Assembly: GCA_913062735.1 (NCBI GenBank)
Contig: CAJXWI010000166.1
Span: 1 to 6,193, forward strand
Direction of reading: 5' to 3'
DNA from: an uncultured Arcobacter sp.
Lineage (GTDB): Bacteria > Campylobacterota > Campylobacteria > Campylobacterales > Arcobacteraceae
DNA: 6,193 bases
Part shown: positions 1-6,193 of the stretch, piece by piece
Position numbering within the stretch: position 1 is the first letter of the stretch
How the letters are laid out: every line of letters begins with the position of its first letter
The notes under the pieces: generated by a model
Database searches by the model: none
What the model saw: only the letters and a program-made list of their open reading frames with translations
Told to the model about the DNA's origin: nothing
Position numbers and translations under genes: made by a program

Positions 1-1
1 A

Positions 2-1297
2 AAAGGAAAAACTATCAAAACATTTGGTTCAATAATACTATGTGATGAGATTTTAAAAGCATTAGAAGAAGAAGGCTACGAAAGCCCAACAGAAATACAG
101 AAAAAAACAATTCCAGTACTTTTAAAAGGTTCTGATTTAATAGGCGCTGCAAAAAGTGGTACAGGTAAAACTGCTGCTTTTGTTCTTCCTATTTTAGAAA
201 AACTAAAAAACACACAAAATAATGAACCAAAAGTTCTTAGATGTGTAATTTTAGTACCAACAAGAGAATTAGCAAAACAAATTTCAAAAGCGATCTCTCA
301 TTACTCAAGACATCTGAATATTACTTATGCAGAGATTTTTGGAGGTGTTTCTAATAAAATTCAAGAAACAAAACTAAAAAAAGGTGTGGACATAATCGTA
401 GCAACAACAGGAAGATTAAAAGATCATATTACGAATAATGGTTTAAATTTAGGAAGTGTGAATATGCTTGTTGTTGATGAAGCAGATACTATGCTAGAAC
501 TTGGTTTCTTAAAAGAAATAGAAGAAGTTTTTGCACTAGCTTCTCCTCAAAGACAAATTATGATGTTCTCAGCAACCATTTCACAAAATGTAAAACAACT
601 TGCGAAACAATTTTTACGAACACCTACTGTTGTTGAAATTACGAACAGAAGAGAAACCGTTGCATTAATTGATCATTTAGCTTACAGTGTTGACAGTGAT
701 CAAAAAAAAGAGATGTTATCGTATTTAATCGGTTCTAAAAACTACCAACAACTTTTAGTATTTGTAAATACAAAAAAGATGGCAGATACCTTAACTGAAC
801 ATTTAAACTTGGATGGTTTAAATTCTTTATGTATTCATGGTGATATTAAACAACCCGCACGTGCACGTGCACTAAGGAAATTTAAAGCAGGTGAAATCAG
901 AGTTTTAATAGCAACCGATATTGCAGCACGTGGAATTGATATTGAGCAGCTTCCTTTAGTTGTTAATTATTCTCTTCCTGAAACAACAGATGATTTTACG
1001 CACAGAATAGGAAGAACAGGACGAGCTGGTAATAGAGGTTGTGAAATTTCTTTATTAAGTGTCAAAGAATATAAACAATATGCTCAAATTCAAAAAGATT
1101 TAAAATTAGATACGCAAAAAGAGCAATTAGAAGGTTTTGAGTTAACAGAAAGAGAACACAGAGTAGCACGCTTTAAACGTCTGTCTTTAAGTGAGAAAAA
1201 AGGCTTAAAGAAACCTAAGAATCCTTATGAAAAAAAGGTTAGTAAATCTAAGAAAACAACTAAAAGAGATGCAAACAGAACATTTAGAAAAAAATAA
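2..1297 (+). CDS. DEAD-box ATP-dependent RNA helicase, 5'-partial
   Basis: The reading frame is open from the first bases to the stop at 1295-1297, giving 431 visible residues. No in-frame ATG lies before the Q motif, so the start is probably just upstream of the window. Motifs seen in order: aromatic F8 with GYESPTEIQ (Q motif, 25-33), AAKSGTGKT (motif I, 49-57), PTRELA (Ia, 86-91), TTGRL (Ib, 135-139), DEAD (II, 159-162), SAT (III, 190-192), ATDIAARGID (V, 304-313) and HRIGRTGR (VI, 334-341). A Lys/Arg-rich tail of about 45 residues follows, typical of RhlE/DeaD/CshA-type enzymes that unwind short RNA duplexes in ribosome assembly or mRNA decay. Family membership is certain; the exact paralogue is not, so no symbol is given. 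Motif Ib has Thr where TPGR is usual. An in-frame GTG at 386 is internal and is not a start, because motifs Q, I and Ia lie before it. Confidence 0.97.
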   Translation, partial: KGKTIKTFGSIILCDEILKALEEEGYESPTEIQKKTIPVLLKGSDLIGAAKSGTGKTAAFVLPILEKLKNTQNNEPKVLRCVILVPTRELAKQISKAISHYSRHLNITYAEIFGGVSNKIQETKLKKGVDIIVATTGRLKDHITNNGLNLGSVNMLVVDEADTMLELGFLKEIEEVFALASPQRQIMMFSATISQNVKQLAKQFLRTPTVVEITNRRETVALIDHLAYSVDSDQKKEMLSYLIGSKNYQQLLVFVNTKKMADTLTEHLNLDGLNSLCIHGDIKQPARARALRKFKAGEIRVLIATDIAARGIDIEQLPLVVNYSLPETTDDFTHRIGRTGRAGNRGCEISLLSVKEYKQYAQIQKDLKLDTQKEQLEGFELTEREHRVARFKRLSLSEKKGLKKPKNPYEKKVSKSKKTTKRDANRTFRKK

Positions 1298-1322
1298 AAA
1301 GTCTTAAGACTTTTTATTTTTT
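1289..1322. terminator. Bidirectional terminator, perfect 34-bp palindrome
   Basis: The 17 bases from 1289 to 1305 are the exact reverse complement of those from 1306 to 1322. As RNA the core folds as an 8-bp AAAAAGTC/GACTTTTT stem around a TTAA loop. A T-rich tract follows on either strand (TTTTTATTTTTT rightward, TTTTTATTTTTTT leftward), as expected of a factor-independent terminator serving both convergent genes. It contains the helicase stop (1295-1297) and the stop of the opposite gene (1304-1306). The stem is A/U-rich with only two G-C pairs, so its strength is uncertain. Confidence 0.8.
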
Positions 1323-1669
1323 AAATACTTTCCAAACAACATTAATCCTGCTCCTACTAATAAACCTGTATACAAAGAAGAATTGAATTTATTTTCACCC
1401 ACAGTCTTATTTGAAACATTTAGTTTTACATTTTCTATTATTTCTAAGCGTGAATAATAATCTCCCAGTTCATTTAAATGAGCCAGTGCTATTTTTCCCG
1501 TTAAAATCATATCATTGTGTGTAACATCAGTATTACTATCAACAATTCCATGTTCTAACTCTACTTCAAGGCCTCGTCTGAACTGATTAATATCAATTAC
1601 ATTCCAATCAATATTTAATGCTGTTCCAATTTCATAGGCTGTTTCTTGGCTTATATTTTTTATTATCAT
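1304..1669 (-). CDS. DUF5661-like protein with C-terminal membrane segment
   Basis: A 121-residue protein of unknown function. Residues 5-75 match my memory of the DUF5661 pattern: an N-terminal A-x-x-I-G-x-x-L-x-I-D-W helix, then FRRGLEVELEHG (31-42), a D-x-x-T-D-V-T-x-x-D stretch (44-53), and TGKIALAHLNEL (57-68) with DYYSRL (70-75). Such proteins are usually small and soluble. This one adds a polar linker and a single hydrophobic segment near residues 98-115 (SLYTGLLVGAGLMLFGKYL), followed by KNKKS. That is the layout of a C-tail-anchored protein with its head in the cytoplasm, which is inference. The start is supported by TAGGAAAA about 4 bases upstream of the ATG. It lies 71 bases downstream of tex on the same strand and may be read from it or from A/T-rich -10-like hexamers in that gap (for example TATAGT, complement of 1709-1714). 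Its 3' end lies inside the shared terminator. Confidence 0.8.
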   Translation of the reverse strand: MIIKNISQETAYEIGTALNIDWNVIDINQFRRGLEVELEHGIVDSNTDVTHNDMILTGKIALAHLNELGDYYSRLEIIENVKLNVSNKTVGENKFNSSLYTGLLVGAGLMLFGKYLKNKKS

Positions 1670-1740
1670 ATATTTTCCTAGTTAAAGTAATTTAATTTTA
1701 TATTATTTACTATAAAAGTATCGTTAAATGAAAATTCTTG

Positions 1741-3855
1741 TTATTTCAAAGATAAAGAAATTTTTTGTTTTTCTTTATCAATACTCAAAATTTTAATATT
1801 TTTTAATTGTTGATTAATTGATAAGTGATCCATTACATGAGAAACCCGTTTACTTGAAACTTGTGATATATGTAAAAGAGCATCATTTTTCAAACCAATA
1901 TCAACAAAAGCACCAAAATCAGTAATATTACGTACAACGCCGTTTACTAAGTCATTTTCTTTTAATTCATCAAAACTTTTTATTTCTTCACAAAAAGATA
2001 TTTCTTCTAATTCATCTCTAATATCAAAGCCTGGTTTTTCTAATTCCCTTATCACATCATTTAAACTTTGTATTCCACAATTGTATTTTGCACATAAAGT
2101 ACTTTTTACCTCAGCACTTATTTCACTTATTTCACTTATTTCATAGTGTTCTTTTATATCTTTTGCCAAAGCATAATTTTCAGGATGAATTCCAGAATTA
2201 TCTAAAAAATTCTTTGTTTCTTTTATTCTTAAAAATCCAACACATTGTTCATAGATTTTATTTCCAAGACCTTTTACTTCTAATAATTGTGCTTTATTTG
2301 AAAAAGACGTATTGCAAGTTCTATACTCAACAATGTTTTTAGCCATCTTTTCAGAAATTCCAGAAATAAAAGATAAGAGTTTATACGAAGATGAATTTAA
2401 ATCTACCCCTACTTTATTAACCAAAGAAGAAGTTACATCATTTAATTTTTTACTTAATTCATTTTGATTTACATCGTGTTGATATTGTCCAATTCCTAAA
2501 GACTTAGGATCGATTTTTACCAAAGCAGACATAGGATCTCTTAAACGTTGAGCAATTGAAATAGCACCTCTTATTGTTACATCTAAAGAAGGATACTCTT
2601 CTTGTGCAATTTTAGAAGCAGAATAAACAGAAGCACCTATTTCACTTACTACTGCATATTTAAGACTTAAGTTATTTTCTTTAATTAAAGCAGATACAAA
2701 AGCAGCCGTTTCTTTTGAGCCGGTTCCATTTCCAATTGCTATACAAGTGATTTTATATTTTGTAACTAGGGCAAGTACCGCTTCTTTAGCTTCATCTTCT
2801 TGTTTTTTACTTAATAAATAAATAACTTTATGCGCTAAATAGGTCCCATTCTCATCAATAAGTGCTAATTTACACCCACTAATAAAACCAGGATCCATTC
2901 CCAAAATAACTTGTTTCATTAAAGGTGGTGTTAATAAGAGTTCATTAAGATTCTTACCAAATAAATTTATTGCATGTTTACTTGCTTTGTCTTTTAAAGT
3001 ATTTAAGTACTCTCGTTTTAAGCTTGGTAATAACAAGCGTTTTAAAGAATCCGTATAAGCTTCTAGTACATATTCACTTGAAGACTTAGAGTACGCAGGT
3101 ATACGGAATTTTTTAATACCTTCTATTAAGTACTGTTCATCTACTTCAACTTTTAAGCTTATTTCTTTTTCATTTACTGCTCTTAATATTGCTAACAAAC
3201 GATGTTCTTTTAATAAATATCCTTTAGTATTAATACTAGAGAGTTGTTTATACAAACCATCTTCTTTAAATGTTTTTGTTTTTTTTGTTTTTAACAAAGC
3301 ATGATTTATTATATTCTTTCGTAAAGCCTCTTTGGTTCTTATCTCTTGTGAATAATATAAAGCGATTATATCTTTAGCGCAGTTTATAGCTGTATCTACA
3401 TCTTGTATGTTTTTGTTTAAAAAAAGTTTTGCTTTATTTTGTATTTCTTCTTTACTGTACTTCATACATAATATAAGCTTTGCTAAGCCTTCTAATTTAT
3501 TATCAATGGCAAAGTCTGCTCTAGTACTTTTAGAGCCTTTAAAGGGTTCATATATATCTTCTAAGAGCGTTTTCGTATTTGCTTGCTCTATTGCTTTTAC
3601 TATACTAGCACTTAACTCACCTTTTTCTTTTAATATCTTAAGAATCTCTTCTTTTCTCTTTTCAAGTTTAAGAACATATTCATATAACTCTTGAAAAACT
3701 AAGAGCTCTTCATCACTGGTATTTCCAGTACTGTCTTTTCTATACCTTGCAATAAATGCAATAGTACACCCTTCTTCTAATAAATCAATAATATTGTTTA
3801 TATGTGTTTCAGCTATTGAGGTTTTATTTTTTAAAATTTCTATTATGTTTTGCAT
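1741..3855 (-). CDS. tex: Tex family RNA-binding transcription accessory protein
   Basis: At 704 residues this is near the usual length for Tex (E. coli YhgF is somewhat longer). Landmarks: FIARYRK with DSTGNTSDEEL (34-51) in the N-terminal helical region; IYEPFKG (101-107); an RNase H/YqgF-like domain opening with GMDPGFISGCKLALID (319-334) and continuing with IAIGNGTGSKET (372-383); the signature ending in KIDPKSLGIGQYQHDVNQ (447-464); a helix-hairpin-helix region (about 491-545) with SGISEKMAKNIVEYR and VKGLGNKIYEQCVGFLRI; and an S1 domain (about 633-703) with GVVRNITDFGAFVDIG and LLHISQVS. Tex binds nucleic acid and is linked to transcription and RNA handling in the cytoplasm; its exact role in this lineage is unsettled. 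It follows the exonuclease gene by 9 bases, so the two are probably co-transcribed. The ribosome site is weak (AAAGAA, 5 bases before the ATG). A triple EIS repeat lies at 572-580. Confidence 0.97.
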   Translation of the reverse strand: MQNIIEILKNKTSIAETHINNIIDLLEEGCTIAFIARYRKDSTGNTSDEELLVFQELYEYVLKLEKRKEEILKILKEKGELSASIVKAIEQANTKTLLEDIYEPFKGSKSTRADFAIDNKLEGLAKLILCMKYSKEEIQNKAKLFLNKNIQDVDTAINCAKDIIALYYSQEIRTKEALRKNIINHALLKTKKTKTFKEDGLYKQLSSINTKGYLLKEHRLLAILRAVNEKEISLKVEVDEQYLIEGIKKFRIPAYSKSSSEYVLEAYTDSLKRLLLPSLKREYLNTLKDKASKHAINLFGKNLNELLLTPPLMKQVILGMDPGFISGCKLALIDENGTYLAHKVIYLLSKKQEDEAKEAVLALVTKYKITCIAIGNGTGSKETAAFVSALIKENNLSLKYAVVSEIGASVYSASKIAQEEYPSLDVTIRGAISIAQRLRDPMSALVKIDPKSLGIGQYQHDVNQNELSKKLNDVTSSLVNKVGVDLNSSSYKLLSFISGISEKMAKNIVEYRTCNTSFSNKAQLLEVKGLGNKIYEQCVGFLRIKETKNFLDNSGIHPENYALAKDIKEHYEISEISEISAEVKSTLCAKYNCGIQSLNDVIRELEKPGFDIRDELEEISFCEEIKSFDELKENDLVNGVVRNITDFGAFVDIGLKNDALLHISQVSSKRVSHVMDHLSINQQLKNIKILSIDKEKQKISLSLK
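2115..2143. repeat. In-frame 9-bp tandem repeat within tex
   Basis: Three exact copies of CACTTATTT followed by CA. On the coding (minus) strand this gives three consecutive Glu-Ile-Ser triplets (residues 572-580) in the linker between the helix-hairpin-helix and S1 regions. Because the unit is 9 bases, copy-number change by polymerase slippage would keep the frame. Confidence 0.9.
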
Positions 3856-3864
3856 GTATATTCT

Positions 3865-4389
3865 TTATATAATAATTTTCATAAGTTTTAGTATCTCATA
3901 GGTTTTGCTTACATCGTAGGTTGCACTGTGATAAGAGTTGGGATCAAATTCTATTCCATAATGCAAGCAGGTTTCATCAAGTTTAGGATTCTTTATTTTA
4001 CCATTCTTATTTAAAGCTTTTACTATATGCTTATTTTCTTTCATTGTACAAAAGTGTTTTTCAAATGAAACAATGTTTTTTAAATGCCTTAACTCAAAAC
4101 TTATATTATGAGCTATTAGTACTTGTGTATTTTTACAAAAAGTGACAAAATCTTCATCTTCACTAAAATAGGAACTGTAAGAAGAATCTGCTCGGTGTTT
4201 TAATATTTTTTCAGGTGTTAACTTGTGTACGGCGTAGGAATAAGGGTTAACATCCCAACGTGAAAGATAGTATCTGTGAAACTGTTCTACAACTTCATAG
4301 CTATTATCTCTTAGTTCAAGTTTAACAGCTGCTACTTCAATAACATCATGTTCATTACTGCTATTTGTTTCAAAGTCTAAGATAATCAT
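3865..4389 (-). CDS. DEDDh-type 3'-5' exonuclease (DnaQ-like fold)
   Basis: A 174-residue single-domain protein. ExoI is IILDFETN with D5 and E7. ExoII is LIAHNISFELRHL (91-103). ExoIII is YHSATYDVSKTYEIL (153-167), with H154 and D159 as the DEDDh His and last Asp. The family removes nucleotides from 3' ends of DNA or RNA with two divalent metals. The length fits a stand-alone exonuclease rather than a polymerase domain, and the substrate cannot be read from sequence. An oddity is that the ExoII acidic position, normally Asp, is Glu (E99, codon GAG), which keeps the charge but shifts metal geometry. The start is supported by AAGGA six bases before the ATG and by the ExoI motif beginning at residue 3. 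It is the first gene of a leftward unit with tex, and a TATAAT box lies just upstream. The name DNA polymerase III epsilon subunit would over-interpret it. Confidence 0.88.
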   Translation of the reverse strand: MIILDFETNSSNEHDVIEVAAVKLELRDNSYEVVEQFHRYYLSRWDVNPYSYAVHKLTPEKILKHRADSSYSSYFSEDEDFVTFCKNTQVLIAHNISFELRHLKNIVSFEKHFCTMKENKHIVKALNKNGKIKNPKLDETCLHYGIEFDPNSYHSATYDVSKTYEILKLMKIII

Positions 4390-4409
4390 TTATAATCCTT
4401 AAAAAAAGA

Positions 4410-4415
4410 ATTATA
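4410..4415 (-). promoter_or_regulatory. Sigma70-type -10 box for the exonuclease-tex unit
   Basis: The minus strand reads TATAAT exactly here, preceded by TTGGC. Transcription would start roughly at 4400-4404, just ahead of or at the AAGGA ribosome site (4396-4400), giving a very short leader. No clear TTGACA-like -35 is found upstream, which is usual for Campylobacterota promoters, where A/T-rich upstream DNA replaces it. Assigned from sequence match only. Confidence 0.55.
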
Positions 4416-4439
4416 GCCAATATAAATTAAATACATTTT

Positions 4440-4518
4440 AGATGAAAAAACGATTATTACAGAAAAATGAAAAGAGTTTTATGTATTATTAGTTAGAATA
4501 TTTGCGCAAGGAGTTTTT
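4440..4518 (+). promoter_or_regulatory. Upstream region and ribosome site of the channel pair
   Basis: This right half of the divergent intergenic gap should carry the rightward promoter. The best -10 candidates are TATTAT at 4484-4489 and TAGAAT at 4494-4499. The first leaves room for a leader of about 20 bases; the second would place the start almost on the ribosome site. No -35 is evident. A strong Shine-Dalgarno sequence, AAGGAG at 4508-4513, sits five bases before the ATG at 4519 and fixes that start. No operator-like dyad was seen. Confidence 0.4.
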
Positions 4519-5595
4519 ATGAACAATGCAAAACAAAGCCTTAGTTTTTATCTTGGGCGATTTTTAATAGTACTTAGTATACCTTTCATACTTTACAGTT
4601 TTTTATTCTTAGCATTTTTAGGTTATGTCCCTTTACAAGTAGAAACACACACGCTTATAACCAATGCTTTAATTTTATTAATTTTTATTTTTTTTATTCA
4701 ACACAATGCTTGGTATTCACTTGAAAAATTCAAAAGTAGTTTTGAGAAAAAGACAACTGGAATTGAAGAGTATATAAAAGAAAATGAAATTATTATTTCT
4801 GGCAAAAAAAAATCACTCTCTTCTTTGGAACATTTTTTCGATGATGATTTACGAGAAATTAGAAATGATCATTTTTCATCAATTGCAGCATCAATCTTTC
4901 CTACTCTTGGAATATTAGGAACCTTTGTTGCAATTGCTATTTCTATGCCTGATTTCACTTCCTCTTCACAAGAAGCCTTGGATAAAGAAATTTCTTCTCT
5001 CTTAGCAGGTGTTGGTACTGCTTTTTATGCTTCTATTTACGGAATATTTTTATCTCTTTGGTGGATATTTTTTGAAAAAAGAGGTTTATCTAAGATTGAA
5101 GCTATTATATATACCTTAGAACTACAATATGAAAATAAGGTTTGGAATAAAGAAGAAATAGAAATTTTAAGTCTTATTCAAAACAAGAAAAACAATGATA
5201 CTTTATTAAATAATATTCAGCATTTAATCTCTCCTTCTTATGTAACAAGAATAGAAGAAATTGCAAAAAGCAAACTAGAAGAAATTAAAAACCTAAATGT
5301 AGAACATCAAAATATGCAAGACCTCTTGTTAAATAAATACAAACGTCTTGAAGAATTATTTGATGATTCTTCAAAAACAGAAGCAAGTATTCATAATAAT
5401 TTAACTGCCTTAGAAAAGTCTATACAAAGTACGAATTCTTCTTTGGTTTCAAGTATTGAAGAACAAAATAAACATTCTAAAGCATTAAAAGCAGAAATAT
5501 ACTCAGTACTTTCATCTTTTGAATTGGTATCAGGAGATTTAAAAAATTTAGGTGAACAATTAATTGCAAAAAGTATAAGTGATGAAAAGAAATAA
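4519..5595 (+). CDS. MotA/TolQ/ExbB-type proton channel protein (ZorA-like)
   Basis: A 358-residue inner-membrane protein. Hydrophobic segments lie near residues 14-35, 47-63, 119-143 and 161-185. The last two carry the family hallmark: PTLGILGTFVAIAIS (128-142), and LLAGVGTAFYASIYGIFLSLWW (161-182) with small and Thr residues that line the ion path in MotA, ExbB, TolQ and ZorA. Between segments 2 and 3 is a charged cytoplasmic loop. After residue 185 comes a long helical, probably coiled-coil tail (about 190-350). In known homologues five such subunits surround two MotB/ExbD-like partners and use ion flow to turn or move them. The partner is the next gene, which overlaps this one by 14 bases, so the pair is probably translationally coupled. 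The long tail resembles ZorA of Zorya defence systems more than classical MotA, but no zorC, zorD or zorE is in view, so a defence role is not claimed. Confidence 0.88.
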   Translation: MNNAKQSLSFYLGRFLIVLSIPFILYSFLFLAFLGYVPLQVETHTLITNALILLIFIFFIQHNAWYSLEKFKSSFEKKTTGIEEYIKENEIIISGKKKSLSSLEHFFDDDLREIRNDHFSSIAASIFPTLGILGTFVAIAISMPDFTSSSQEALDKEISSLLAGVGTAFYASIYGIFLSLWWIFFEKRGLSKIEAIIYTLELQYENKVWNKEEIEILSLIQNKKNNDTLLNNIQHLISPSYVTRIEEIAKSKLEEIKNLNVEHQNMQDLLLNKYKRLEELFDDSSKTEASIHNNLTALEKSIQSTNSSLVSSIEEQNKHSKALKAEIYSVLSSFELVSGDLKNLGEQLIAKSISDEKK

Positions 5596-5971
5596 CTCTA
5601 ACAATAATAATACCAACTTCTGGATTTCTTATGCAGATTTAATGGCAGGATTATTGTTTGTATTTATCTTACTCATTGGTGCAATTATTGTTAAATATTC
5701 ATTTTTGGAAAAAGAATCCGAACTATTACAAGATTCATTAAACACTGAAAGTTCTGCTTTAATGCAAGCAAAAAAACGAATCAATGAAAAAAATGAAAAA
5801 ATTACTTTAACCTTAGAAGAGCTAAAACAAAGCTATGCAGCCTTAAAACTAAATAAACATAAGCTCAAAGAAAATAAAAAAACCTTGGATGAGAAAAATA
5901 AACTCTTAAAAAACAAAGAAATAAGCTTACTTGATTTAATAAAAGAAAAAGAAGACTTAAAAATATTATGA
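5582..5971 (+). CDS. MotB/ZorB-like stator protein, truncated (no OmpA-like domain)
   Basis: A 129-residue protein from the ATG at 5582; a GTG directly before it (5579) is an alternative start. No clear Shine-Dalgarno is present, and the start lies inside the end of the preceding gene, which points to translational coupling. After an Asn-rich cytoplasmic N-terminus comes FWISYADLMAGL (13-24) and one transmembrane helix to about residue 40. D19 is the equivalent of the ion-carrying Asp of MotB. A Lys/Glu-rich coiled coil fills residues 42-129. Members of this family normally continue into a C-terminal OmpA-like peptidoglycan-binding domain, giving roughly twice this length or more. Here a TGA at 5969-5971 ends it right where an rnpA-like frame takes over. 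I read it as the front part of a longer gene cut at a junction near 5938-5967. As it stands it could sit in the channel but could not anchor to the cell wall. Confidence 0.82.
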   Translation: MKRNNSNNNNTNFWISYADLMAGLLFVFILLIGAIIVKYSFLEKESELLQDSLNTESSALMQAKKRINEKNEKITLTLEELKQSYAALKLNKHKLKENKKTLDEKNKLLKNKEISLLDLIKEKEDLKIL

Positions 5972-6102
5972 ATGATGCTGTAAAATCAATCAATATAAAC
6001 TTTAATTATTCATATCTTTTGATCTCTCGAAAATCTGTTTTGGATGACAATTATAAAATTATAAAAGAGAAAGTTTTTCAAGATTTTGAAAAAATAAAAT
6101 AA
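5938..6102 (+). pseudogene. rnpA: C-terminal half of RNase P protein component (rnpA fragment)
   Basis: In a frame different from the preceding gene, the DNA reads NKRKRRLKNIMNDAV, then NYSYLLISRKSVLDDNY and a terminal helix KEKVFQDFEKIK, ending at the TAA at 6100-6102. This matches the known plan of RnpA: the RNRxKRRLR box that contacts RNase P RNA, then the (Y/W)DYVLIARK-type strand and a final helix. About 54 residues are present of the usual 105-125. The N-terminal half, any start codon and the usual upstream rpmH are absent; the frame is closed by a TGA at 5932-5934. The stop overlaps the next ATG (TAATG), the usual close rnpA-yidD arrangement. An ATG at 5968 would allow only a 44-residue product without the RNR box. 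The assignment is by eye from motif and neighbour, and the yidD context makes it strong. Confidence 0.75.
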
Positions 6103-6193
6103 TGAGAGTTATTAATTATATTTTTATTTTTCTAATTAAGGCTTACAAATTTTCATTAAGTCCCTTTTTTTATAATTCGTGTAAATTCCATCC
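6102..6193 (+). CDS. yidD: YidD membrane protein insertion efficiency factor, 3'-partial
   Basis: Thirty complete codons from the ATG at 6102 are visible before the right edge. The protein begins with a hydrophobic/amphipathic helix (VINYIFIFLIKAYKFSLSP) and reaches FYNSCKFHP, the start of the conserved Cys-rich YidD core (the family continues P-T-C-S-x-Y). YidD is a small membrane-associated protein that aids YidC/Sec-dependent insertion of inner-membrane proteins. It normally lies between rnpA and yidC, and here it overlaps the stop of the rnpA fragment by one base, in keeping with that order. Confidence 0.88.
   Translation, partial: MRVINYIFIFLIKAYKFSLSPFFYNSCKFH

Follow-up and report, generated by a model that had tools for sequence, protein, structure and literature searches.

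An Arcobacter contig in which a motB/zorB-like gene runs into a foreign rnpA tail is almost certainly an assembly artefact or other inter-species chimera

The window, i.e., the whole stretch of 6,193 nucleotides of an uncultured Arcobacter sp. that was analyzed, is best explained as a contig whose left part (positions 1 to about 5945) comes from an Arcobacteraceae bacterium and whose right part (from about 5967 to the end) comes from an unrelated bacterium. The two sides of the join are of different source, because the left side is colinear with the genome of Arcobacter sp. NORP36, while the RnpA tail on the right side is foreign both to NORP36 and to its family. We are highly confident that the window joins two organisms and that the fusion of motB to rnpA within it is an artefactual inter-species chimera, whether it was made in the assembler or in the library. 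Hence, the fusion is almost certainly an artefact and not a real biological feature. No Rfam family matched the window over its gathering score. In this reading, the features of the window are as follows.

1 to 5945: unambiguous Arcobacter-derived part, from the DEAD-box helicase through the start of the motB/zorB-like gene (blastn block and gene families)
2-1297, plus strand: DEAD-box helicase
1304-1669, minus strand: DUF5661 protein
1741-3855, minus strand: Tex
3865-4389, minus strand: exonuclease
4519-5595, plus strand: MotA/ZorA-like protein
5579 to 5971, plus strand: truncated motB/zorB-like gene, with its last codons and stop on the rnpA side
5946 to 5966, plus strand: the join, the longest possible exact stretch common to both parents (21 bp)
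5967 to 6102, plus strand: foreign rnpA tail including its stop, with the RnpA reading traceable from 5938 across the shared stretch
6102 to 6193, plus strand: start of yidD, cut by the contig end (TIGR00278, E 0.00024, below the cut-off)

When the MotA-like protein was used as the query of genome contigs, a single locus was recovered (L001, 91% amino-acid identity), which belongs to NORP36, an Arcobacter metagenome-assembled genome. Window positions 1-5966 aligned with L001 positions 5494-11448 in one colinear blastn block, with 90.4% identity and 13 gaps. The MotAB/ZorAB-like channel pair of NORP36 (L001 10001-12389) is the same gene pair as that of the window, but the window MotB-like protein is devoid of the OmpA domain. 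In NORP36 the motB-like gene is full length, and its 442-aa product carries an OmpA domain (44.4 bits against a Pfam cut-off of 27.2) and a plug match of 18 bits (cut-off 24), whereas the product of the window is of about 130 aa (frame 5579-5971, ending in a stop), with a MotB_plug match of 20.4 bits that also lies under the cut-off of 24 and with no Pfam match to an OmpA domain. A MotB/ZorB protein is recognized by an N-terminal plug and a C-terminal OmpA-like domain; of these, the window protein has the plug only, below the cut-off, its OmpA domain having been cut off by the join. The claim of the earlier note that a motB/zorB-like gene is cut within its coiled coil, with loss of the OmpA domain, was thus confirmed by an orthologue that keeps this domain.

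Among 104 Arcobacteraceae genomes, 56 gave matches to the NORP36 MotB-like protein at E 1e-20 or better. One of them (G016) has a full-length copy that is 95% identical to the NORP36 protein, and six further genomes showed 51-54% identity over nearly the whole length, one of these (G058) with an internal stop. The local alignments of the window to L001 and to the G016 locus (L038) both stop at base 5966. The same contiguous arrangement in related genomes, with the same truncated proteins, had been named in advance as the observation that would speak against a fusion. As far as this comparison was run, both of the closest orthologues keep their full length, and among 68 retrieved loci there was none whose match to the window runs without a break out of motB and across into the tail of rnpA. 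Beyond the join, the match that extended farthest was weak (76% over 50) and ended near 5987, in L028, a locus retrieved for its rnpA.

In a more distant relative (L044, from G089), a stretch resembling motB matches window positions 5935-5975 at 90%, which shows that the coiled coil of a motB-like gene can look like the join region by chance as far as 5975. The right limit of the shared sequence was therefore set on the two close orthologues. A frame-shifted continuation of motB, which was considered in view of this match, was rejected since the 54 residues concerned match RnpA at 94-98%. A naturally short MotB was also considered and rejected. When the 129-aa MotB fragment was used as query, 112 of 189 candidate proteins reached E 1e-5, with listed lengths of 70-226 aa. 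The closest match other than the fragment itself, P0065, likewise has 129 aa; it is 84% identical over 90%, comes from a contig of 1063 bases and has DLKI as its last residues, very near the position of the join. The end of P0065 is presumably that of its contig and not a stop codon.

As observed with PADLOC, the MotA/MotB-like pair (L001 10001-12389; window 4519-5971) resembles ZorA/ZorB, with 48.3 bits for ZorA and 194.5 bits for the full-length ZorB1 (no cut-off is given there). With NCBIfam, the best ZorA score was 43.6 against a cut-off of 500, and ZorB1 scored 24.4 in the window and 66.5 with the full-length NORP36 protein against a cut-off of 400. As for the partners that a Zorya defence system has beside ZorA/B, no ZorC/D or ZorE was detected by PADLOC at E 1e-3 in four downstream L001 ORFs or in the DUF5661 protein of the window, and none of ZorC/D/E as such appeared in the exonuclease or among the 25 of 57 matches listed for the helicase. 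In NORP36 two adjacent adenylate/guanylate cyclases lie behind the motB-like gene (L001 12401-14227 and 14228-16060, minus strand), with Guanylate_cyc scores of 96 and 86.8 bits and matches to Cache-type sensors. PADLOC places these cyclases near PycC (up to 117.8 bits), a likeness that is probably due only to the shared cyclase domain. The NORP36 contigs contain ambiguous bases, seen as N in the L002 DNA and as X in the L001 and L002 translations.

To the right of the join, another frame (5938 to 6099) encodes 54 residues beginning NKRKRRLKNIMNDAVK and ends in a TAA stop (6100-6102), which is overlapped by a yidD ATG (6102-6104), followed by a 30-aa YidD start before the contig end. The YidD start, which presumably comes from the same foreign parent as the rnpA tail, gave matches to TIGR00278 and to PF01809 (E 0.0013) that are both below the cut-off because the contig ends within the gene. 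By profile, the RnpA tail scored weakly, i.e., 13.1 bits with PF00825 (E 0.1, cut-off 22.3) from half a protein only, and NCBIfam gave no match to it at E 1 or better. In a homology search with the tail, however, all 63 candidate proteins matched, and the best 22 of the 63 (P0001-P0022, metagenome proteins) were 94-98% identical to the last 54 residues over their whole length, so that the tail was assigned to RnpA in spite of its profile score. A length of 113 aa was found for 21 of these 22 and for 52 of the 63 overall, and the complete relatives P0001 and P0020 scored 49.5 and 54.4 bits for RnpA, above the cut-off of 22.3. When compared with P0001-P0022, the window is without rpmH and the front half of rnpA, both cut off by the join; its RnpA is incomplete, with the first half and start missing and with the R and I of the RNR box read as F and R. 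The earlier proposal that this frame is an RnpA C-terminus followed by yidD was therefore borne out by 54 codons with 94-98% identity to 22 RnpAs, and the absence of an RnpA profile match, which had been put forward as evidence against it, was found only in the form of a weak match that this identity overrules.

This tail is not that of the left parent. A complete rnpA is present in NORP36 itself, adjoined by ORFs that by eye are rpmH-, yidD- and yidC-like, and only 11 of the 54 window residues are identical to the NORP36 RnpA. When L001-L032 were searched by tblastn with the 54 residues, no match had an E value below 0.025, although L002-L032 had been retrieved as rnpA loci. Furthermore, P0020, a complete relative of the tail, shares 38% identity with the NORP36 RnpA and 27-42% with the RnpA of 100 of the 104 Arcobacteraceae genomes (the other four gave no match at E 0.001); among 397 Campylobacterota, two reached E 1e-10, at 43% and 37% identity. 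These low identities indicated that the tail does not come from the Arcobacter lineage as sampled. With the complete P0001 as query, at least 7998 relatives were recovered, all at E 1e-6 or better, and Tara was the source of some clusters among the 120 relatives listed, which fits an abundant marine clade as the right parent. We take this parent to be probably a SAR11-type marine alphaproteobacterium. By tblastn, P0020 matched six plasmid records and six phage records, with identities of 25-34%, and no RnpA relative was confirmed in the 27 stretches of viral contigs examined.

Some database proteins related to the tail are themselves unusual. P0047 runs from the rnpA of the tail into residues that resemble an alternative frame of the yidD start. 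P0043 (83 aa) has the RnpA of the tail as its C-terminal part and an N-terminus without a Pfam match at E 1e-3, which to our eye looks like MnmG; it is perhaps another chimera at the rnpA of the same clade. P0176 and P0177, 167-aa RnpAs of a related group, repeat some 54 residues internally in nearly identical form, RNR box included, and this could be either a real duplication or a misassembly.

The limits of the join were then given by residues that only one parent explains. The codon at 5935-5937 encodes R in 61 of the 63 RnpA relatives (S in P0013, I in P0043) but F in the window, and that at 5944-5946 encodes I in 62 of the 63 (H in P0043, itself odd) but R (AGA) in the window. At both codons the bases of the window are those of both motB orthologues. 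Since the window has R where the relatives have I, 5946 is the earliest base at which an exact match to the foreign rnpA could start, and the last base that matches both close motB orthologues sets the right bound at 5966. The exact stretch common to both parents is hence at most 5946-5966, 21 bp of A-rich sequence (AAAAAGAAGACTTAAAAATAT), an upper bound because the codons of the right parent were deduced from proteins; the DNA of the left parent was seen in orthologues. The earlier note had proposed a shared stretch of 20-27 bases; its length was reduced to at most 21 bp, and if it is written as 5938-5966 it carries a mismatch at 5945, assuming a foreign I codon. A simple composition model (28% GC and 3.3 Mb for one genome, an assumed 29.5% GC and 1.3 Mb for the other) predicted that two such AT-rich genomes would have about 62 21-mers in common by chance, and 0.04 27-mers.

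A length of 21 is a common smallest k of metagenome assemblers. In the proposed mechanism, motB and rnpA would by chance both contain one and the same A-rich sequence of at most 21 bp, and most likely a de Bruijn assembler passed via a shared k-mer from the path of one genome to that of the other. We infer that the join was probably made by such a k-mer misjoin in the assembler rather than in the library. A chimera formed in the library, by template switching in PCR or whole-genome amplification at the shared stretch, would still be an artefact, and a short sequence common to both genomes would serve it equally well; we consider it rather unlikely, because a rare chimeric molecule would presumably seldom dominate a contig and because the shared length fits the usual smallest k.

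The sole contig listed for the MotB fragment has 6193 bases, the same as the window, so that the window appears to be the whole contig, whose end appears to lie 227 bases past the join, inside the foreign part. A real horizontal insertion, in which foreign, probably planktonic rnpA-yidD DNA had entered the Arcobacter motB-like gene by illegitimate recombination at the stretch of up to 21 bp, is very improbable: Pfam revealed no transposase or integrase family in the eight window translations scanned, the join lies at a stretch of chance-expected length, the contig appears to stop within the foreign part 227 bases later, and motB is intact in the two close relatives. Of the two origins that the earlier note had offered, the k-mer misjoin was supported, and a microhomology-mediated deletion fusing motB to the cell's own rnpA in one Arcobacter genome, in spite of the A-rich stretch that the two sides would share at the join, can practically be dismissed, decisively because the RnpA tail is not arcobacterial and the right parent is another organism, and also because of the distance between the two genes: motB is matched at E 1e-70 or better in 14 genomes, and in the five of them where a single contig carries both motB and rnpA (G036, G045, G058, G089 and G099) the two are separated by 0.89-1.33 Mb; weaker motB-like matches can be nearer to rnpA (about 0.25 Mb in G050).

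"Chimeric nodes" of metagenome de Bruijn graphs are described in PMC8171044. The chimera by k-mer misjoin that we favor is like such a node in that the sequences diverge on either side of a putative short common stretch, which the contig enters from one and leaves into the other. It differs in that the paper deals with two evolutionarily similar species, whereas the parents of the window are not closely related. The window's own 129-aa MotB fragment is already in the protein database (P0064, found by protein search). The finding is to be taken as a caution only: short joins of this type can introduce spurious gene neighbors and spuriously truncated genes into databases, and they can be recognized by a cheap test, i.e., by the homology edges of both parents together with the residues explicable by one parent only.
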